A DNA stretch of 56,870 nt from Bacteroidales bacterium (GTDB lineage Bacteria > Bacteroidota > Bacteroidia > Bacteroidales > UBA932), in the NCBI GenBank assembly GCA_017454265.1, contig JAFTDJ010000052.1:1-56870 (forward strand), written 5' to 3'. The stretch's first letter is position 1. Each line of letters begins with the position of its first letter. Made by a program: the position numbers and the translations under genes. The notes beneath the pieces were generated by a model. It saw nothing but the letters and a program-made list of their open reading frames with translations, had not been told where the DNA came from and did not search any database. Below, piece by piece: positions 4,645 to 28,864 of this stretch.

Positions 4645-6975
4645 TCAAAGGCTACTTGAGGGCCCGTAAACATTCACAAATAAATAATCCTCAATAGTTC
4701 CCCAAGCGTACTCAAGGCTAACAGGGATGCGGAGAGTGTAGTCGTCGGCATGACCCATATTATTCTGATAACTGAGCGAATAGTTGGCCATGTTCGAAAT
4801 AGGGGACAGGCTTAAATTAAACACGCCGTTAGGCACGTAATTCCCGCTATTTTTATTTGTTACGCCCAACCATGCATTAGCATTTACAGAACTCAAGAGA
4901 GCATAAGATCCATCAGCCAGAGACTGGTTCGTGGCCACATGATCAAGATCGATGCTGATACTGTTGATACCATAATAGCCGCAGTAATATATGCCGGAAT
5001 ACACACCTTGAACATAGGTATCAGAGGAGCTGTCGTAATAGAATAATCTATAGCCCTGCCAATCCTCGGCACTGAAGAAGCGTCCTAGCTCAATAGAGTC
5101 TCCTCCGCCCGGGATGCCCTCAACAAAATGATTCGTGTTATCGATACTAAAGGTTATCGGGCGCAAGAAACGCACATGGATAGTCATCCTTCCCAGTTCG
5201 GTATAATTGTTATTATTGGAGTCTACATAATACGCAACGAGGTCGACATTGCAGTAGAGAATTCTGCCATTCGGATTTGCATCAGTTGGGTTGCTTGCCC
5301 AATTGATGAGTTGCTTGGACGCATCGTTATAGTTAAAAATAATCTCTCCAGTGCTTTGGTCTGTCATGCTGATAATAGCAGTGTTGTTATAACTAAGTAA
5401 CGTCGAGGACGAACGGGTAATGGCCCTACCGGCTGCTCCCACCCTTGGCTGAATCTGGCTGAACTCATATTTATAATGTATTCGCGAGCACACGCTAGCG
5501 GGAACGGCCGGGCTGACATTGACCGTCACCTGTCCACTGGTCCAATAATTATCAATCTTTATGACATATTGGGCTACATCATCTCCACCATACTCGTTAT
5601 AGGATTGAGGTATGCGGACATTAGTACGTATCGTAGAACCTGCTTCACCATTAACGTCGCCGTACCAGTAGGATGAAAACTTTGTTGCAAACGACGCGGT
5701 TGGTTTGGCCCCGATTTTTAACTTAAAGCCTATGTATATTACATCATTCTTTGCAGACACAAACTGCGCATACAGTGTTTTAGCCGTGCCGGAGCCAAAA
5801 TTATCTTCTTGGGCCTTGGAAAGAGATATAGTAAACTTATCATTTATTGAATCTGAACCGCCATTTTTCTCAAAAATCACAGAACCGCAATCATTGCTCC
5901 CCGTGCACTCTACCATTCCATTCTTGTAGCAATATGTCTTGCCGGCGACCCATGTGAAAGATTCGCGGAAGGCTGCATAATCCATCTGAAGAGTTGTTGC
6001 CATGTAGTTTGAAACAGTGCTCCAGGAAACCTCCCTGCTCCAAGTTTCGAAGAAGTAGGGGTATTCTCCAAAATCAGCGACCTGGTAAGATACAACATAA
6101 GGGGTATAGGCCCGCCATGTCAGGTCGGCATCCGGAGTACTCAAAGAGCCGAATATAGCACGTTTGATTGTAGTTTTGCTCGTGCGATTGTATACTGCAG
6201 TGGAACTGTCGTCTTTTGTAAAGGTCAAGGTAAAACCGTTCTCAAATACGGTCGGCACGAGTACAAAATAGTATGCCTTGCCCACCTGGAGCGTAGTCCC
6301 TTCCGGAGCAGAAAGAGTAATGGTGTCACTTCCCCCGGTTATACCCGCCACTGTTGGTAGTCCATTATCGTCAAAGCACGCAGTGATTGTTCCGGCGATT
6401 TGTTCGCCGGTGTTGCCTTGCAGTGCAACGCTGGTAATTCCAGACTCAGACACTGTAAACTTAATTCCGCCGCAGATGTTGTAAAACGGCATACTCAGGC
6501 CCGTGGAGCGTCCCATCGTGGGAAACAAGTCATCTGCAAACGTGTCTGCGGTCGCAATCTGCTCGGACGGAAGGATTGTGGTAATGGATGTTCCGTCACA
6601 GGAAGCGGAAGCGTTGTACGGATAAACCGCCCAGAAATACTGATTGCCCATACTGACTTCGTTGCCTCCTGTAATCACGCCGATAGAGCCCGTGAACTGA
6701 GCGACCCTGGCGGTTTCTGTATTCTGGGAAGTAAACACATTGCCGCCATCAGAGCCGCTGCCAAAGAATAAACTGATCTGGTCGCCCGGGCTCCAGAGCA
6801 CCGAGCCGTCAGCAGCACGCTCCGTGCGGGTGTTAGGTTCGCCGCTGGTGGCGGTGATGGTAATCTCCCTTTGCAATGCAGCAGGGCTGGTTTCTGCGCC
6901 TTCGGGCTCGGCAACTGTACAAGATGCTGCTAACATCATAATTGCCAATTCAACAAATATTCGGTAACGACTCAT
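4645..6975 (-). CDS. Fimbrillin-like lipoprotein with an unrecognised C-terminal half
   Basis: 776 residues with a signal peptide and lipobox (LAASC, Cys19), so probably lipid-anchored. Residues ~30-290 are a fimbrillin-like module nearly identical to those of the two lipoproteins upstream: EITITATSGEP, RTERAADGSVLWSPGDQISL, ADTFADDLFP, NICGGIKFTVSE. After ~residue 300 the sequence is unrelated to the paralogues and I do not recognise it; it is rich in Tyr, Asn and Ser. A promoter pointing the opposite way begins ~30 bases upstream of the start. The 44-codon gene follows 19 bases after the stop, so this gene, the small peptide and the VWA/FISUMP lipoprotein probably share one transcript. Confidence 0.8.
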   Translation of the reverse strand: MSRYRIFVELAIMMLAASCTVAEPEGAETSPAALQREITITATSGEPNTRTERAADGSVLWSPGDQISLFFGSGSDGGNVFTSQNTETARVAQFTGSIGVITGGNEVSMGNQYFWAVYPYNASASCDGTSITTILPSEQIATADTFADDLFPTMGRSTGLSMPFYNICGGIKFTVSESGITSVALQGNTGEQIAGTITACFDDNGLPTVAGITGGSDTITLSAPEGTTLQVGKAYYFVLVPTVFENGFTLTFTKDDSSTAVYNRTSKTTIKRAIFGSLSTPDADLTWRAYTPYVVSYQVADFGEYPYFFETWSREVSWSTVSNYMATTLQMDYAAFRESFTWVAGKTYCYKNGMVECTGSNDCGSVIFEKNGGSDSINDKFTISLSKAQEDNFGSGTAKTLYAQFVSAKNDVIYIGFKLKIGAKPTASFATKFSSYWYGDVNGEAGSTIRTNVRIPQSYNEYGGDDVAQYVIKIDNYWTSGQVTVNVSPAVPASVCSRIHYKYEFSQIQPRVGAAGRAITRSSSTLLSYNNTAIISMTDQSTGEIIFNYNDASKQLINWASNPTDANPNGRILYCNVDLVAYYVDSNNNNYTELGRMTIHVRFLRPITFSIDNTNHFVEGIPGGGDSIELGRFFSAEDWQGYRLFYYDSSSDTYVQGVYSGIYYCGYYGINSISIDLDHVATNQSLADGSYALLSSVNANAWLGVTNKNSGNYVPNGVFNLSLSPISNMANYSLSYQNNMGHADDYTLRIPVSLEYAWGTIEDYLFVNVYGPSSSL

Positions 6976-7003
6976 ACTGTTTTGAAAATATTTCTCGTAA
7001 AAC

Positions 7004-7034
7004 TTGTATTTATGAAAAAGAGCTTGTACATTTG
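7004..7034 (+). promoter_or_regulatory. Bacteroidetes-type promoter of repeat element, copy 1
   Basis: TTG at 7004-7006, 20 bases, then TACATTTG at 7027-7034, matching the known TTG/TAnnTTTG consensus and spacing. Transcription would start near 7041 on the + strand, against the flanking lipoprotein genes. Copy 2 has the same arrangement and spacing although the bases between the boxes differ. Confidence 0.75.
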
Positions 7035-7097
7035 TGCCAAGATAATACGCGATGCGTTGAGAGATAAGCGCCTCAGATTTGGCATCGAAAAACCATT

Positions 7098-7139
7098 ACA
7101 GAGTATTTCTTCGGGAGAAGCGGTACTCTGTATTTTTTT
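7098..7139 (+). terminator. Terminator-like hairpin in leader of repeat copy 1 (possible attenuator)
   Basis: ACAGAGTA (7098-7105) pairs with TACTCTGT (7124-7131), with an inner CTTC/GAAG stem, followed by A and seven T. It lies about 57 bases after the predicted start of transcription and 65 bases before the small ORF. An alternative hairpin, CTGTAT-T6-ATACAG, would use the right arm and the T-run, so the two folds exclude each other, as in an attenuator. Without antitermination the product would be an RNA of about 100 bases. Confidence 0.65.
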
Positions 7140-7203
7140 ATACAGATGCGCTAACACTTTCGAACCCGCCCATTGGACCCGAATATCTAAAACAAACGTA
7201 ATT

Positions 7204-7371
7204 ATGCGTATTATCTTTACTTCAGACGCCAAATCGGGTCGCGTTCGTATAGAGCTTAGCGAAGAGCAACCCACGGCACTTGCTCCGGCAGAAGAGCGCA
7301 AACAATCTGCCTCCAAACCGGAGAAAGTCCATGTGAGGGCCCACTGGCGACGCCGTCCGGCTAAGCCATAG
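7204..7371 (+). CDS. Small basic protein in repeat copy 1 (55 aa)
   Basis: Small ORF ending in an Arg/Lys-rich tail (HVRAHWRRRPAKP) after a Glu/Ala/Pro-rich middle. Copy 2 encodes a 56-residue version. In the shared core of about 150 bases the copies differ at four sites, three of them synonymous, which mildly favours a translated product. The frame stays open upstream to 6982, but that extension crosses the promoter and hairpin and is not listed for copy 2, so I use the ATG at 7204. I do not recognise the family. The tail suggests nucleic-acid or RNA contact, which is inference only. Confidence 0.45.
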   Translation: MRIIFTSDAKSGRVRIELSEEQPTALAPAEERKQSASKPEKVHVRAHWRRRPAKP

Positions 7372-7415
7372 GCTCTTACGGGCCTCCCGGCCCGTGCTGC
7401 CCGCCATCTGCCAAA

Positions 7416-7448
7416 GAGGGTCGCCCAGTTTATTGCCGGGAGGCCCTC
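7416..7448. other. Imperfect distal hairpin, repeat copy 1
   Basis: The equivalent of the perfect palindrome at 9944-9976. Here the arms (13 bases each, loop TTTATTG) carry one wobble and two mismatches. It lies 44 bases after the small ORF's stop with no T-run. It could be a transcript 3' stabiliser or a weak bidirectional terminator. Confidence 0.5.
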
Positions 7449-7492
7449 CGCGGCTATATCTAGCACTATCGCTTTGCAACACATCATGGCGT

Positions 7493-9502
7493 CTAATTAA
7501 GCGGTTCTTCGATAGTTCCTTCAGAGCCGCCGGTTTCCGGAGCGACCAAGATGACCGTTTCTGCAGGGATGTAATTATTGCTCCTGTCCACCGTCACATT
7601 CGGGATTGACTGGCCCTGGGCGATGTACAGGTAGCCCAGAAGGTTATTGCCCTCGGCGTCTTTCATAGGGGAACACTCCAAATACTGCAAAGCAGTGTTA
7701 TTCGCAACATTCAGACAAGTGATTAGGTTGTTGCCGCAGGATAAAATAGCCAATGCTGTATTACCAGAGATGTCCAAATTAGACAGTTGATTGGAGTTGC
7801 AACGCAATTCAACCAAGGCTATATTTGCCGATAGTTGAAGAGACGTCAAGACGTTAAGATTGCACCAAAGAGTTCGTAACTGTGTATTATTACTCAAATC
7901 CAGAGAAGAAAGATTACAGAATTGACAATCCAGCTTATCCAATGAGACATTTGCACTTACATCCAGATTGGTTAATTGTTTGTTATCACCGCAACGTAAA
8001 TAGACGAGGGAGATATTATTGCTAACATCCAAACTAGTCAATGGATTAGCGCCACAATTTAAACGAGTCAGTAGCGTATTATTGCTTATGTCTAAGCTGG
8101 GCAATTGGTTGCCATAACAATCCAATTCTTTCAGGGCAGTTTGATGACTCACATCCAAGTTTGTTAATTTGTTTGCCGCGCAATCAAAATGTGTCAACGC
8201 CGCGCATACTGTCAAATCAATACCCGTCAATTGGTTATAACCACAATATAAAGAGGATAGAGATGAGTTCTGGCTTACATCTAAAGCTGTGAGCTTGTTC
8301 TTGTTGCAATTTAGATGAGCCAAAGCCGTGCATGTTCGCACTTGAATATTATTCAACTGATTATAAGAGCAATCTACATTTACTAGCTCAGGGTTCGAGC
8401 TCAAATCCAAGGACAAAAGAACGCCATTCGGGTTGTTCAAATCAGGGCATGACCCCTTGCAAATCAAAGATTGTAAATGCAAACAGTACTCAATCCCTTC
8501 CAAAGAAGTAATATCATCAGTACACACATCTATCCTCGTCACCGCCTCAGCCTCGCTGAAATCCAGCACCCCGTTACCATTGGCATCGAAGTTCTGAATC
8601 ATGTACGCACGGAAGTTCTCGTCCGGAATCGGCACATACAGCATCTCCCACTCCAGGCCTGCATCCGGCGTGTTCATCGTGCCGAAGACCGAGCGCTTGA
8701 TGGTCGCCTTGGAGGTGATGACCCTCTCCGCCCTCGCGTAGCCCTTGCTGAAAGTCATCGTGAAGCCGCTCTGGAACACCGTCGGTACCATCACAAAGTA
8801 ATACGACTTCCCCACCTCGAAGGCCTCACCTTCCGGGGCTGTCAGCGTAATGGTGTCGCTGCCGTTGGCTACATTCGTCACCACAGGCACTCCGCCGTCA
8901 AAGGCTGCAGTTATCGTTCCCACTATCTGCTCGCCTCCGTTCGCCTTCAACGTCACACTCTTTATGTCTTCCTCCGATACCGTGAACTTGATTCCGCCGC
9001 AGATATTGTAAAAGGCCATGTTCAGCCCTTGCGAGCGTCCGATTGACGGGAACAGGTCGTCGGCAAAGGTATCGGCCGTTGCCACTTGCTCGGACGGGAG
9101 TACCGTGGTGATGGACGTGCCGTCGCAGGAGGCCGTTGCGTTATACGGATACACCGCCCAAAAGTACGTGTCTTCAACGGCAATGTTGTTGCCACCGGTA
9201 ATCACTCCGATGGTTCCGGTAAAGTTCACCGTCTTGGCAGTCTCCGTGTTCTGCGCCGTAAAGCAGCTGCCGCCATTGGTGCCGCTTCCGTAGAACAGGC
9301 TGATCTGGTCGCCGGGACTCCAAAGCACAGAACCGTCGGCCACACGCTCCGTGCGGGTGTCAGGTTCGCCGCTCGTGGCGGTGATGGTTATCTCCTTCTG
9401 CAAGGCAACGCGGCTGAGCACTGAGCCTTCCGGCTCGGCAACTGTGCAAGATGTGGCGAGGGCAAGAATTGCTAACTCAGAAAGAAATCGATAATACCTC
9501 AT
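7493..9502 (-). CDS. Fimbrillin-like/leucine-rich repeat lipoprotein
   Basis: 669 residues. Lipobox LATSC with Cys19. Residues ~35-285 are the fimbrillin-like module shared with its neighbours. A linker (PIPDENFRAYMIQNFD) leads to an EF-hand-like loop at ~305-318 (DANGNGVLDFSE) that could bind calcium. From ~325 to 620 there are about twelve leucine-rich repeats of 21-22 residues (L-x-C-x-x-N-x-L-x-x-LDxSxN). Such repeats usually mediate binding, so a surface adhesin or ligand-binding role is inferred. The last residues (GGSEGTIEEPLN) resemble the tail of the small peptide at 13551-13676. The element at 9560-9982 lies immediately upstream in the opposite direction. Confidence 0.85.
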   Translation of the reverse strand: MRYYRFLSELAILALATSCTVAEPEGSVLSRVALQKEITITATSGEPDTRTERVADGSVLWSPGDQISLFYGSGTNGGSCFTAQNTETAKTVNFTGTIGVITGGNNIAVEDTYFWAVYPYNATASCDGTSITTVLPSEQVATADTFADDLFPSIGRSQGLNMAFYNICGGIKFTVSEEDIKSVTLKANGGEQIVGTITAAFDGGVPVVTNVANGSDTITLTAPEGEAFEVGKSYYFVMVPTVFQSGFTMTFSKGYARAERVITSKATIKRSVFGTMNTPDAGLEWEMLYVPIPDENFRAYMIQNFDANGNGVLDFSEAEAVTRIDVCTDDITSLEGIEYCLHLQSLICKGSCPDLNNPNGVLLSLDLSSNPELVNVDCSYNQLNNIQVRTCTALAHLNCNKNKLTALDVSQNSSLSSLYCGYNQLTGIDLTVCAALTHFDCAANKLTNLDVSHQTALKELDCYGNQLPSLDISNNTLLTRLNCGANPLTSLDVSNNISLVYLRCGDNKQLTNLDVSANVSLDKLDCQFCNLSSLDLSNNTQLRTLWCNLNVLTSLQLSANIALVELRCNSNQLSNLDISGNTALAILSCGNNLITCLNVANNTALQYLECSPMKDAEGNNLLGYLYIAQGQSIPNVTVDRSNNYIPAETVILVAPETGGSEGTIEEPLN

Positions 9503-9532
9503 ATTAATCTTGAAATAATTGCTATAGGATTC

Positions 9533-9563
9533 TTGTAATTGTCAAATATTGCCATTATCTTTG
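9533..9563 (+). promoter_or_regulatory. Bacteroidetes-type promoter of repeat element, copy 2
   Basis: TTG at 9533-9535, 20 bases, then TATCTTTG at 9556-9563. The start of transcription would be near 9570. Spacing equals that of copy 1, while the spacer sequence is different, which points to selection on the boxes themselves. Confidence 0.75.
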
Positions 9564-9625
9564 TTGCCAGATGATATGCGATGCATTGAGAGATAAGCGC
9601 CTCAGATTTGGCATCGAAAACCATT

Positions 9626-9667
9626 ACAGAGTATTTCTTCGGGAGAAGCGGTACTCTGTATTTTTTT
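9626..9667 (+). terminator. Terminator-like hairpin in leader of repeat copy 2 (possible attenuator)
   Basis: Same stem as copy 1: ACAGAGTA at 9626-9633 with TACTCTGT at 9652-9659, then A and seven T. The overlapping alternative hairpin CTGTAT-T6-ATACAG is also intact. It starts about 56 bases after the predicted start of transcription. Confidence 0.65.
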
Positions 9668-9728
9668 ATACAGATGCGCTAACACTTTCGAACCCGCCCA
9701 TTGGACCCGAATCTTAAAACAAAATGCA

Positions 9729-9899
9729 ATGACGCATATCATTCTAACTTCAGACGCCAAATCGGGTCGCGTTCGCATTGAGCTTAGCGAAGAGCAACCC
9801 ACGGCACTTGCTCCGGCAAAAGAGCGCAAACAATCTGCCTCCAAACCGGAGAAAGTCCATGTGAGGGCCCACTGGCGGCGCCGTCCGGCTAAGCCATAG
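9729..9899 (+). CDS. Small basic protein in repeat copy 2 (56 aa)
   Basis: Paralogue of the ORF at 7204-7371, identical through most of its length (TSDAKSGRVRIELSEEQ at the N-terminal side, HVRAHWRRRPAKP at the end). The first residues (MTHIIL against MRIIF) differ, and one Glu is replaced by Lys. The hairpin at 9944 follows 44 bases after the stop. Function unknown; the reality of the product rests on the promoter, conservation and the mild synonymous bias. Confidence 0.45.
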   Translation: MTHIILTSDAKSGRVRIELSEEQPTALAPAKERKQSASKPEKVHVRAHWRRRPAKP

Positions 9900-9943
9900 G
9901 CTCTTACGGGCCTCCAGGCCTGTGCTGCCCGCCATCTGCCAAA

Positions 9944-9976
9944 GAGGGTCTCCCGGTTTATTGCCGGGAGACCCTC
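9944..9976. other. Perfect distal palindrome, repeat copy 2
   Basis: A 13-bp perfect stem (GAGGGTCTCCCGG with its complement, loop TTTATTG). No T-run on the + side. It may end or protect the small-ORF transcript, or serve the convergent lipoprotein transcript that stops at 10063. Confidence 0.6.
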
Positions 9977-10062
9977 CGCGGCGATGTCAAACACGTATGT
10001 CACCCTTAATCGCATATCATTTACGCTCTTAACGTCACGATAATCAACGCCTACTTCAAGTT

Positions 10063-13000
10063 CTAATTATAATCACCGCCGCGAAGGTCGCCTGTAACTA
10101 CAGATCCTGGCGAGTCGAATTCGAAAGTGCCATTGTTAGAACAATTGGAGAACTCAATCTGAGAATCGGCGGCGCCGCATCCAACAATACCGCCAAGAGC
10201 GGAGACCTTACTTGATGAAGGTGTTGCGGTTGAGTAAAAGCCAAGATTCCCGCTATTGATACAATTCGAATAAGTCGTGGCTCCAGCCTTGCTTGCATCA
10301 GCCACAATGCCACCGACAAAAGATCTCCAATCAGTTTTAGTTACAGCCGGATGATTAAGTTCCAGCGCTCCTCTGTTGGTACAACCACTGACTCCAAAGC
10401 AACAGCCCCCAGCTATACCACCTAGACGGTTGATGGAAGTAGGGCAAGTAATTGTAATATCGCCGTCATTCTCACTGTCGACAATCGAACCGGTCGCATA
10501 GCCGAATACTCCGCCGCAATAGTGATTGGATGTCTCTGTAAGAGTTCTTATGGTAAGGTTAAGATTTACATGATTATAGCACTTTTCGAAAAGAACTGAT
10601 GAATCAGCGGTATATGGACCGGCTGATGCCACTACTCCAGCAAAACAGCAAGAAGCAATGTTCCCTACCCCTCTATTCCCATAAGTGCCGCCTGCGCATA
10701 GCGCATCCACTGTAATCTGGCCATAGTTATGACATTGGTAGGCGCCACGCGTTACAGTGCCCCCCACTCCGGCTATCCTGACACCGGTCCAGACCAAGGA
10801 TTCGGAATCGCAAAGGATTGAAATGTTACCGCTATTGGTGCAGCCTCTCATTTGACCTTCCGTGTAACCTAATACGCCACCAATATTTGGAGACGCACCA
10901 GAACCGCCATTGATGTAGTGTATTGAAACATTCCCTTCATTTGAGCAGTTCTCGACTAATCCATAATTGCCTGGCGTTTGCTTGGCAGAAGGAGATCCTC
11001 CGACGACTCCACCCACACAGAAGAATACTGAAGTCCCATATTCGACACTGACACTTCCAATATTTGTGCAATTCACTACCATGGCTTGTCCTGCTGCCCC
11101 TTCATATATACCAACAATGCCGCCGAGGGAATGGTATGCGCCCGAAACAGGTGTGTCAACTGCAATAGCAACTCTACCACCATTGAAGCACCCACTCACC
11201 ACTCCTGTAGTATAACCAACGAGTCCACCCCAGTTACAACTTGCATTAGGAAGCGAGCCATAATGAAGGTTAATGGTTGCGTTACTGGAGCAATTAATAA
11301 TAGAACCAGCATTATTTGACACCAGTCCACCATAATTGGATCCATCAATAGGTCTGGGAAATGAAATAGTGCAATTGCTATCGAAAATAACATCTTCAAC
11401 CAATGCACTTGTGGTTGCCAAACCTATCATGCTATTGTTTAATTGAACCGATGAGAATTTAACATTGATAATGCTGCCTGTCAAGTTATTAAACAGATGG
11501 TCATTTAAGACTGCATTGCTAATAGTATGGCCCCTACCGTCAAAACTTAGGGCATATAATGCATTGTTACCAGTGATGTTCGCCCCATTCAAATCTATAT
11601 CAGCACCAAGTTCTATATTATGTATCGGATTGGAGAAAAAAGCGATAAGATCCTCCGCCGTATCAATTATAATTGGGGCCTCAGAGTCAAGTCCAGCTTC
11701 GACATAATTAATTGCCGCCAAAGAATCAAAAGACAATTCAGATAGGTTTTGGTAAGCACTCAACCAGAGCTCTTGCATGGGGTTATTCTGACACGTTAGC
11801 CTATCCAGTTGAGGAAGCATACTCACATTAAGAAAAGTAAGATTATTATTAGAGCAAAAAACATGAGTCAAAGCCGTATTGTTACTAACATCAAGGCTTG
11901 CAATCTGGTTATACGAACAGTTAAGTGTTGTCAAGGCAGGACAATCACTTACATCAATGCCAGTCAACTGGTTACTCAGGCAAGCTATCCAGAATAGTTC
12001 CGGATTACCACCCACATCTAAAGAAGTCAAAGCATTGTTATAACAAAACAGTTTTTTCAACGCGCAACATCCTGTGACATCTACGCTGATTAAACAATTG
12101 TTATAGCAATACAGTCGCTCCATAGCTATACAACCGTCCACATTGATACTCGTCAACATGTTGTTGTTGCAAGTGATATATGTCAAGGAAGATAGATTGC
12201 TTGCGTCAAGGCTGATAAGTTGATTATTGCTACAATTCAATGCCTTCAGCGCTGTATTTCTGCTTACGTCAAGGATTGTTAGTTTATTTTCCCAGCAATA
12301 CAATGTTTCCAACTCTGTATTATTGCTTGTGTCCAAAGCGGACAATTGATTGCCCGCACATGATAAGTAGGTTAAGGCTATATTGTTACTTATATCCAAT
12401 GTGGTCAATTGGTTCGAAGTGCAAGACAAACGTTTCAGAGCAATATTCGAACTCACGTCCAAACTTGTCAACGAGTTGGAACCGCAATACAATTGTTCAA
12501 GATTGACAAGGTATTCAATTCCTGCCAAAGAGGCAATATTTTGAGAATATACATTTATCTTTCTGACTGATGCAGCTTCAAGTTCGTCAACTTCGCCATC
12601 TCCATTGGAATCGAAATTTTGAATCATATATGCCCGGAAGTTCTCGTCCGGAATTGATACATATTGCATCTGATTCCATTCTAAGCCAGAATCCGGGGTA
12701 GCTAAGCTTCCAAAAACAGAACGTCGGATTGTAGTGCTTTGAGTTCGATTATAAGTTGCCCATATATTTCCCTTGTTGAAAGTCAGCGTAAAACCATTTT
12801 CGAACACCGTAGGGACGAAAACCAGATAATACGCCCGCCCCACCTCAAGTGTCTCACCTGCCGGAGCTGCCACTGTTACGTAATCCGTGCCGTCTGCAAT
12901 GTTGGTGACTACAGGAAGTCCGTTGTCGTCATAGCCCACAGTAATCTTACCCGCTATTTGTTCGCCTGAGTTGCTCCTTATTGTAACGCTCTTGATTCCT

Positions 13001-13530
13001 TCTTCAGATACCGTGAACTTGATTCCGCCGCAGATATTGTAAAAGGCCATGTTCAGCCCTTGCGAGCGCCCGATTGACGGGAACAGGTCGTCGGCGAAGG
13101 TATCGGCCGTTGCTACCTGCTCGGACGGGAGTACCGTGGTGATGGAAGTGCCGTCGCAAGACGCAGTTGCGTTATACGGATACACCACCCAAAAGTACGT
13201 GTCTTCTACGGCTATGTTGTTGCCGCCGGTAATCACTCCGATGGTTCCGGTAAAGTTCACCGTCTTGGCGGTCTCGGTGTTCTGCGCAGTAAAGCAGCTG
13301 CCGCCATTTTCGCCGCTGCCATAGAACAGGCTGATCTGGTCGCCCGGGCTCCAGAGTACCGAGCCGTCGGCTGCACGTTCAGTACGGGTGTCCGGCTCGC
13401 CAAGTGAGGCGACAATTGTTATCTCTTGCTCTCCTAAAACCGGGGAACAGACAATCTCGGGCTGTGAAACGGTACAAGACACAGCTAACGCAACCACTGC
13501 GGCCGCGGCGGATAAAAGGTTATACCTCAT
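10063..13530 (-). CDS. Fimbrillin-like/leucine-rich repeat/GLUG-like lipoprotein
   Basis: 1155 residues from the Met at 13530. Reading on to 13611 adds a 27-residue Arg-rich segment that overlaps another small gene in a different frame and would bury the signal peptide, so I reject it. Lipobox ALAVSC (Cys19), then the shared fimbrillin-like module (~35-285), an EF-hand-like loop (DSNGDGEVDELE, ~310-320), and leucine-rich repeats to ~640. The C-terminal half has many short Gly/Asn-rich repeats such as GGLVGYTTGVVSGC and GGIVG, typical of GLUG-type beta-helical adhesin segments. Probably a surface adhesin. The 41-codon gene at 13551-13676 lies 20 bases upstream on the same strand and is probably co-transcribed. 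Confidence 0.85.
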   Translation of the reverse strand: MRYNLLSAAAAVVALAVSCTVSQPEIVCSPVLGEQEITIVASLGEPDTRTERAADGSVLWSPGDQISLFYGSGENGGSCFTAQNTETAKTVNFTGTIGVITGGNNIAVEDTYFWVVYPYNATASCDGTSITTVLPSEQVATADTFADDLFPSIGRSQGLNMAFYNICGGIKFTVSEEGIKSVTIRSNSGEQIAGKITVGYDDNGLPVVTNIADGTDYVTVAAPAGETLEVGRAYYLVFVPTVFENGFTLTFNKGNIWATYNRTQSTTIRRSVFGSLATPDSGLEWNQMQYVSIPDENFRAYMIQNFDSNGDGEVDELEAASVRKINVYSQNIASLAGIEYLVNLEQLYCGSNSLTSLDVSSNIALKRLSCTSNQLTTLDISNNIALTYLSCAGNQLSALDTSNNTELETLYCWENKLTILDVSRNTALKALNCSNNQLISLDASNLSSLTYITCNNNMLTSINVDGCIAMERLYCYNNCLISVDVTGCCALKKLFCYNNALTSLDVGGNPELFWIACLSNQLTGIDVSDCPALTTLNCSYNQIASLDVSNNTALTHVFCSNNNLTFLNVSMLPQLDRLTCQNNPMQELWLSAYQNLSELSFDSLAAINYVEAGLDSEAPIIIDTAEDLIAFFSNPIHNIELGADIDLNGANITGNNALYALSFDGRGHTISNAVLNDHLFNNLTGSIINVKFSSVQLNNSMIGLATTSALVEDVIFDSNCTISFPRPIDGSNYGGLVSNNAGSIINCSSNATINLHYGSLPNASCNWGGLVGYTTGVVSGCFNGGRVAIAVDTPVSGAYHSLGGIVGIYEGAAGQAMVVNCTNIGSVSVEYGTSVFFCVGGVVGGSPSAKQTPGNYGLVENCSNEGNVSIHYINGGSGASPNIGGVLGYTEGQMRGCTNSGNISILCDSESLVWTGVRIAGVGGTVTRGAYQCHNYGQITVDALCAGGTYGNRGVGNIASCCFAGVVASAGPYTADSSVLFEKCYNHVNLNLTIRTLTETSNHYCGGVFGYATGSIVDSENDGDITITCPTSINRLGGIAGGCCFGVSGCTNRGALELNHPAVTKTDWRSFVGGIVADASKAGATTYSNCINSGNLGFYSTATPSSSKVSALGGIVGCGAADSQIEFSNCSNNGTFEFDSPGSVVTGDLRGGDYN

Positions 13531-13550
13531 AATGTTATTGTGGTTTAGTA

Positions 13551-13676
13551 TTAAGGAAAAAGCGGCTCTTCGCCTGTTCCTTCGGTCTCGCCTACGCCGG
13601 GAGAACCACACAACATCCCTGTGAATTGAACATACAACAGTTTCGCACTAGGCTCAACATAGACTTGCTTCTCCAT
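13551..13676 (-). CDS. Small conserved-type peptide (41 aa) ahead of a lipoprotein gene
   Basis: 41 codons from ATG at 13674-13676 to TAA at 13551-13553, ending 20 bases before the LRR/GLUG lipoprotein gene. The N-terminal part has Y-V-x-P. A Cys lies 17 residues after that Tyr, followed by G-S, and the C-terminus is Gly/Glu-rich (GETEGTGEEPLF). This matches the layout of the 44-residue peptide at 4491-4625 with no gaps. No signal peptide or membrane segment. Function unknown; candidates include a co-regulated secreted peptide or a translation-coupling leader, both inference. Confidence 0.65.
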   Translation of the reverse strand: MEKQVYVEPSAKLLYVQFTGMLCGSPGVGETEGTGEEPLFP

Positions 13677-28726: not shown

Positions 28727-28734
28727 TATCTTTG
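28727..28734 (+). promoter_or_regulatory. -7 box of SRP RNA promoter
   Basis: TATCTTTG, six bases before the predicted 5' end of the SRP RNA. The -33 region falls inside the cdd terminator stem and reads TTC rather than TTG. Confidence 0.6.
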
Positions 28735-28739
28735 CGGCA

Positions 28740-28838
28740 GGGAAAGTCCTTTACGACCAGCTCCCTCAAAACTCCCCCAGGGCCGGAAGGCAGCAAGGGT
28801 ATGAGGTTGTAGCGGTGCGATAAAGCAAGCTTTCCCTT
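28740..28838 (+). ncRNA. ffs: Small signal recognition particle RNA (4.5S type)
   Basis: About 99 bases. Contains the conserved SRP domain IV core (GGCCGGAAGGCAGCA). The 5' end GGGAAAG pairs with 3' CTTTCCC, closing a long hairpin, and a T6 run at 28837-28842 ends it. It binds Ffh and guides membrane-protein targeting. Ends are inferred from the pairing and the upstream promoter. Confidence 0.93.
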
Positions 28839-28864
28839 TTTTCGTTTACTTGCTTCCGGCACTG

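Follow-up and report, generated by a model that had tools for sequence, protein, structure and literature searches.

The 56,870-nt stretch analysed here (the window; contig JAFTDJ010000052.1 of an uncultured gut bacterium of the Bacteroidales) comes from a 1.94-Mb genome that is 76% complete, and carries on its + strand two closely related units, each with a promoter, a structured leader, a small open reading frame (ORF) and a distal hairpin (Table 1). The copies at 7031–7455 and 9560–9982 share 93% identity across 424 bases, and the genome holds no further copy apart from one 24-base chance match. With respect to the neighbouring lipoprotein genes, each unit diverges from the preceding one and converges with the following one. 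A first-pass annotation had described this near-identical pair of about 420 bases, its TTG-N20-TAnnTTTG promoter boxes, a structured leader, a terminator-like hairpin, a 55/56-codon basic ORF and a distal hairpin, all running against the flanking lipoprotein genes; we could locate every one of these elements in both copies, and we also accept its + strand transcription unit, which these signals predict. The central feature, which that annotation had not named, is a variable 5′ tag of the RNA that is complementary to the start codon of the same transcript.

A TAnnTTTG box stands at the equivalent place in 21 of the 21 units listed, which were anchored on this box. The TTG-N20-TAnnTTTG type of consensus is assigned to the primary sigma factor of the Bacteroidetes in PMC7366714.

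Table 1. Features of the two units and of the adjoining genes (positions in the window)
Feature	Position	Strand	Basis or remark
Copy 1 promoter	TTG 7004–7006, N20, TACATTTG (−7 box) 7027–7034	+	read from sequence
Copy 1 P1 5′ arm, expected RNA 5′ end	7039–7050	+	pairs with 7206–7217; transcription start predicted
Copy 1 hairpin A	7051–7086	+	stems 7051–7055/7082–7086 and 7057–7061/7072–7076, loop AGAUAAGCGC 7062–7071; covariation, 22 sequences
Copy 1 hairpin B, intrinsic-terminator-like	7097–7139	+	T7 at 7133–7139; sequence, covariation
Copy 1 P5 5′ arm CAGATG	7143–7148	+	pairs with 7405–7410
Copy 1 small ORF, 55 amino acids	7204–7371	+	basic C-terminus VRAHWRRRPAKP; P1 3′ arm inside, 7206–7217
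Copy 1 P5 3′ arm CATCTG	7405–7410	+	pairs with 7143–7148
Copy 1 distal hairpin GAGGG...CCCTC	7416–7448	+	without T-run behind; sequence, folding
Copy 2 promoter	TTG 9533–9535, N20, TATCTTTG (−7 box) 9556–9563	+	read from sequence
Copy 2 P1 5′ arm	9570–9580	+	11 bp with 9733–9743
Copy 2 hairpin A	9580–9615	+	covariation
Copy 2 hairpin B and T-run	9625–9667	+	sequence
Copy 2 P5 5′ arm CAGATG	9671–9676	+	pairs with 9933–9938
Copy 2 small ORF, 56 amino acids	9729–9899	+	translation, dN/dS
Copy 2 distal hairpin	9944–9976	+	placed by offset from copy 1
Lipoprotein gene divergent from copy 1	4645–6975	−	no Pfam match
Leucine-rich-repeat (LRR) lipoprotein gene between the copies	7493–9502	−	context
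LRR/GLUG surface protein gene convergent with copy 2	10063–13611	−	context

A variable 5′ tag complementary to the start of its own reading frame

Comparison of related units shows that the RNA opens, just behind the expected start site, with nucleotides that can base-pair with the region around the start codon of its own ORF (helix P1), and that the P1 sequence varies between units while the pairing persists in 19 of 20. Among three sequences alone, 6 of 12 P1 pairs are altered on both sides. For 15 units, the cognate duplexes have a mean energy of −15.3 kcal/mol and a run of 12.1 nt, against −5.4 kcal/mol and 6.3 nt for the non-cognate ones, an advantage equalled in none of 100,000 permutations. 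With 20 units (excluding L099, an ortholog of L031), the cognate mean is −15.1 kcal/mol versus −6.3 kcal/mol for all other pairings, again unmatched in 100,000 permutations. Nine of these units, six of them recruited by a model that lacked P1 or left it unmodelled, give 1 in 100,000 when tested alone. P1 reaches −11.4 kcal/mol or stronger in 19 of the 20 units and mostly comprises 9 to 15 uninterrupted pairs, with interruptions in L029, L067 and L110; the spacing between the −7 box and the AUG is 147–175 nt.

Each unit has a tag that is almost exclusively its own. In the window, the tag of copy 1 pairs very weakly with the start of copy 2 (−5.3 kcal/mol), and in the genomes G234 and G130 the cross pairing between tags and the starts of other units is weak. 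Thus, copies within one genome should be largely insulated from one another. Pairing between a variable tag and the start codon also explains the joint divergence of the units behind the promoter and in the first codons.

Leader hairpins and long-range folding

Hairpin A consists of two stems around a strongly conserved loop, and hairpin B reads ACAGAGYA...URCUCUGU, followed by U. In 22 sequences, 11 of the 19 pairs of the two hairpins are altered on both sides, and their covariation score of 0.330 compares with 0.137 after shuffling, with none of 500 shuffles reaching it. When the pairing is slid as a control, the paired fraction drops from 91% to 47% or less. Alignment A6 omits L022, L038 and L069. 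The distant members L029, L105, L110 and L111 have lost the loop sequence of hairpin A and retained hairpin B. A repeated TTAACATTTAAC-like motif, perhaps a regulator site, lies directly upstream of the promoter at L028, L045, L035 and L085 (three genomes), and L130:1908–2272 in G234 has two consecutive leaders that lack a small ORF and have the conserved 3′ hairpin behind them.

A second long-range helix, P5, is formed between a leader motif behind the terminator and the 3′ untranslated region (3′UTR). Its arms are CAGATG/CATCTG in units of type a, CGGATG/CATCCG in most others and CGGGCAG/CTGTCCG in L031. The motif pair is present in 15 of the 19 units scanned (L022 and L073 were omitted); in L025 and L111 it was found by eye beyond the scanned stretch, and in L099 and L158 it was not seen. 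Since P1 and P5 cross, they would form a pseudoknot or a switch between the two.

Pseudoknot-free folding of full transcripts predicts P1 with a probability above 0.5 in 14 of 21 units. None of 100 dinucleotide shuffles folds as well as the 415-nt transcript of copy 1 (z −5.1); on its own, the 165-nt leader stands out only moderately (z −2.3), with 3 of 200 shuffles being equally good. A long leader fold without P1 was replaced once the full unit had been aligned. Removal of the first 20 nt raises the predicted openness of the AUG from 0.29 to 0.57 in copy 1 and from 0.38 to 0.63 in copy 2, and alters it little in several other units.

The small protein

The ratio of nonsynonymous to synonymous substitution rates (dN/dS) in the ORF body is 0.10–0.36 in type a (6 pairs), 0.14–0.50 in type b (22 of 28 pairs, the other 6 being saturated) and 0.10–0.41 in type c (6 pairs). 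Judged by these values, the body is under purifying selection, and the first 7–8 codons vary fast: the proportion of nonsynonymous differences (pN) in the first codons versus the body is 0.19 versus 0.01 for the window copies, 0.29 versus 0.07 for L025–L046 and 0.46 versus 0.08 for L103–L107. This contrast is weak or absent in the most distant pairs. Since the first codons evolve faster than the body, the start of the protein follows the tag.

Genes proposed on the minus strand at 6972–7487 and 9602–10015 were rejected, as no reverse frame is open across all 15 units checked. A frame kept on the minus strand only was what the first-pass annotation had regarded as speaking against its + strand unit; it is the + strand ORF that proved to be constrained. 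A minus-strand TAnnTTTG box inside the unit occurs in 2 of 21 units and is not conserved (other promoter types were not scanned).

The C-terminus is basic in 17 of 17 aligned proteins, and the product is a small basic protein that probably binds nucleic acid. Searches of Pfam, NCBIfam and PHROGs gave nothing above the cut-off for it; the weak scores were phrog_7328 (E 0.012–0.023) and scattered Pfam matches, each in 1 of 17 members, with a best E of 0.011. The sequences in the PDB gave no meaningful match.

Relatives and genomic settings

The unit has no Rfam match (the best model, GibS, has an E of 1.5), and the earlier impression that it belongs to no named family holds for Rfam, Pfam and NCBIfam alike. 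At the protein level, a search across 200 genomes of the genus found true relatives in G000 and G071 only, eight other weak matches being dropped as chance on the basis of their translations. It was a covariance model built from three sequences (R1) that opened up the family. A second model of 22 leaders without P1 (R2) detects the leader, among 400 genomes of the genus, in 25 at E<1e-4 and in 32 at E≤0.1; 15 of the 25 genomes had supplied model sequences and 10 had not.

A pattern of hairpin A plus the start of hairpin B matches 16 stretches among 84,980 species genomes, of which 15 are titled Bacteroidales or a taxon within it (two Candidatus Cacconaster, one Rikenellaceae) and one Bacillota. 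The last (L074) has the leader with a Bacteroidetes-type promoter box and is possibly mis-binned. The same pattern has no match in viral contigs, and phage, plasmid and viral collections gave no convincing match (E 0.3 or worse). In 295 and 247 genomes of the order, the best E values beyond the own genome were 0.004 and 0.0074, under strict filters that could hide weak relatives. Decayed copies occur at L026, L073 and L085. No description of such a unit was found among literature titles, a coverage from which subscription papers are largely missing.

Type a units lie among lipoprotein genes (the window, G071, G299, L073 and L069). Other units occupy what we take to be capsule-type polysaccharide loci (G213, G233, G027 and G130; gene names putative except where Pfam was run), a presumed locus for type I restriction (G394) and, on the chromosome, a site next to a gene that we assume to be alr-like (G064); a type c unit, L152:650–1013, sits between genes presumably resembling the type I restriction genes hsdS and hsdR. 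Counted by hand, 19 of 23 units lie in convergent orientation to the gene at their 3′ end.

In the window, the N-terminal part of the lipoproteins is also repeated in three neighbouring genes (6369–6960, 8896–9487 and 12927–13518), so that the pair of units looks like a segmental duplication; the third repeat has no unit beside it. Elsewhere in the window, 28733–28840 is an ordinary Bacteroidales small signal recognition particle RNA (Rfam RF04183).

Proposed mechanism and its alternatives

Taken together, sequence comparison supplies a promoter box, covarying hairpins A and B, P1 with a complementarity private to the unit, P5, an ORF that is coding and evolves fast at its start, and scattered loci. 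The unit is, in our judgement, probably a self-sufficient gene for a small protein that is controlled by attenuation and has its start codon locked by its own 5′ tag. RNA polymerase would start at about 7039 in copy 1 and 9569 in copy 2, and much of the RNA would end at hairpin B, yielding a leader RNA of about 100 nt with the 5′ tag, hairpin A and hairpin B. Read-through would yield an mRNA of about 410 nt, in which the tag would pair with the G of the AUG and with codons 2–5 and should thereby exclude ribosomes. The mRNAs of this phylum lack Shine-Dalgarno sites. P5 would tie the leader to the 3′UTR and, in crossing P1, would either complete a pseudoknot or alternate with it. In the terminated leader RNA the tag would be free and could in addition block mRNAs deprived of a 5′ end of their own.

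Several observations weigh against this proposal. L158 (G027) has no convincing P1 (−6.9 kcal/mol), and other helices beat P1 in 7 of 21 units on pseudoknot-free folding. Within the window the insulation is incomplete, since the tag of copy 2 forms a good duplex with the start of copy 1 (−14.0 kcal/mol). L026, in which the ORF is decayed, keeps 12 perfect P1 pairs, but its region was located by the pairing itself, and the −7 boxes of L107 and L111 were set by eye, the model hit being misplaced. Extra pair types in hairpins A and B (24 versus 21.5) are matched by 59 of 500 shuffles. Finally, several leaders are not followed by a small ORF (L023, L027, L032, L035 and L036), and a few precede Y1-transposase-like genes and lack P1.

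The small basic protein might instead bind its own leader at the hairpin A loop and control read-through or translation as an autoregulated ribosomal protein does, with P1 as the output. The uniformly basic C-terminus and the conserved loop would fit such a scheme, which we regard as possible while leaning against it: the four distant members that lose the loop keep P1, and the same leader precedes the Y1-transposase-like genes, which make no such protein.

A bolder form of the locked-gene proposal, offered tentatively and in our eyes rather doubtful, is a one-strand self-complementary module in which one promoter yields both a guard RNA, by attenuation, and the small-protein mRNA. An 11–15-nt hypervariable tag would co-evolve with the first codons, each copy obeying mainly its own guard, and the module would be a mobile one of addiction or defence type that settles in surface, capsule and restriction loci. 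Closely related, and unlikely, is a toxin-antitoxin-like module on one strand, in which the protein is harmful when freely made and the terminated leader is an antitoxin acting in trans on processed mRNAs without a tag. The sporadic, scattered, multi-copy occurrence, the largely private pairing, the three decayed copies and the long-range pairing that would keep the mRNA inactive are all consistent with it, folded and inactive primary mRNAs of type I toxins being described in PMC11228461. However, the tag is already present in cis, 19 tags have no second local target and there is no conserved antisense promoter. The protein is also basic, where a hydrophobic peptide, the usual product, would be expected.

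The units could further be mobile DNA of the non-autonomous kind that relies on Y1 (RAYT-like) transposases acting in trans, with the hairpins and P1 acting as DNA. A unit separates the second and third genes of a capsule-type cluster in G213, another separates the first and second in G233, and each junction is closed in the other genome. In G027, two 530-bp copies (L158:3998–4527 and 5421–5950), identical at 527 of 530 positions, lie directly behind a stop codon and are bounded by TAAC. These observations point to mobility, and the dispersed units are probably mobile; the G027 units, however, lack P1. For the G347 unit, 41 genomes were searched for an empty site, but the flanks are too diverged to be informative. 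The same promoter and hairpins A and B also precede RAYT-like genes (L077:4055–4972, L079:855–1778, L081:1531–2451 and L098:1617–2537), and a more distant one with a leader is found at L108 (Y1_Tnp E 0.0011, below the cut-off); HxH and Tyr are invariant in the leader-bearing genes. By eye and without a tRNA scan, tRNA-like sequence was noted close to L077, L079 and L081, the latter two of which also have lipoprotein genes next to them. RAYT-like genes are widespread, occurring in 23 of the 27 genomes searched, yet the leader is absent from all 14 assessable upstream regions of the others, as judged by eye. The window units encode no Y1 (HUH) transposase, their sole product being the 55/56-amino-acid protein. 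The conserved −7 box and the coding constraint require transcription, and the unit with the TAAC-bounded copies is the very one without P1, making a purely DNA-level role quite improbable.

The first-pass annotation saw in the unit a regulator paired with variable surface proteins, acting antisense or in trans on the neighbouring lipoprotein genes. The setting of type a and the prevailing convergence with the 3′ gene are in keeping with this, but the same leader also lies in polysaccharide, restriction and other loci; near 19 orphan or RAYT-type leaders, the best tag-complement sites apart from the tag itself have at least 2 mismatches (the window tags were not scanned). Since most other unit types lie elsewhere, we reject it as a general reading and consider it very improbable. 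A purely non-coding RNA with an incidental ORF would account for the strong conserved structure and is scarcely credible against dN/dS values of mostly 0.1–0.4 in three types.

The units show that selection strongly maintains a long-range pairing that overlaps the first codons of a protein, even as the paired sequences themselves vary freely. If the locked-gene proposal is true, every copy in a set of repeated genes would have a simple lock of its own, and this in a phylum that lacks Shine-Dalgarno sites and in which little is known of how RNA controls start codons.

Comparison with known systems

An invertible promoter (inverton) was considered and rejected, as the P1 arms lie behind the promoter instead of flanking it. 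For a retron, no ORF between the non-coding RNA and the next lipoprotein gene is long enough (no reverse transcriptase profile search was made). The hairpin and internal terminator before a gene recall the leaders of IS200/IS605 and RAYT elements, including IS200 attenuation, and some RAYT-like genes carry this same leader; most units, however, encode no transposase. Attenuators and riboswitch-type leaders, too, combine a terminator hairpin with a helix that covers the start codon, but the closing helix of the unit is hypervariable and private, no Rfam model matches and the downstream genes are not metabolic.

GibS-type small RNAs of Bacteroides share with the unit an intrinsic terminator and a 5′ seed directed against translation start regions, and they show that such a seed works in this phylum (PMC7366714). 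Unlike GibS, the unit has its target in its own read-through transcript, and the GibS model scores 21 bits against a threshold of 115.

Among toxin-antitoxin systems, type III (ToxIN-like) likewise places an RNA, a terminator and an ORF in a single operon. In the unit, by contrast, the RNA pairs with the start of the mRNA and the protein has about 50 amino acids; tandem repeats of the type III kind were seen neither on reading the leader nor at 30 nt or more (shorter repeats were not searched). In type I systems the complementary RNA is not, as it is here, made from the ORF's own strand and promoter, and the unit further differs in its basic protein and in having no conserved antisense promoter (2 of 21). 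With type I it nevertheless shares a small ORF, a predicted inactive mRNA held by long-range pairing, an RNA complementary to the translation start and copies that are largely insulated from one another.

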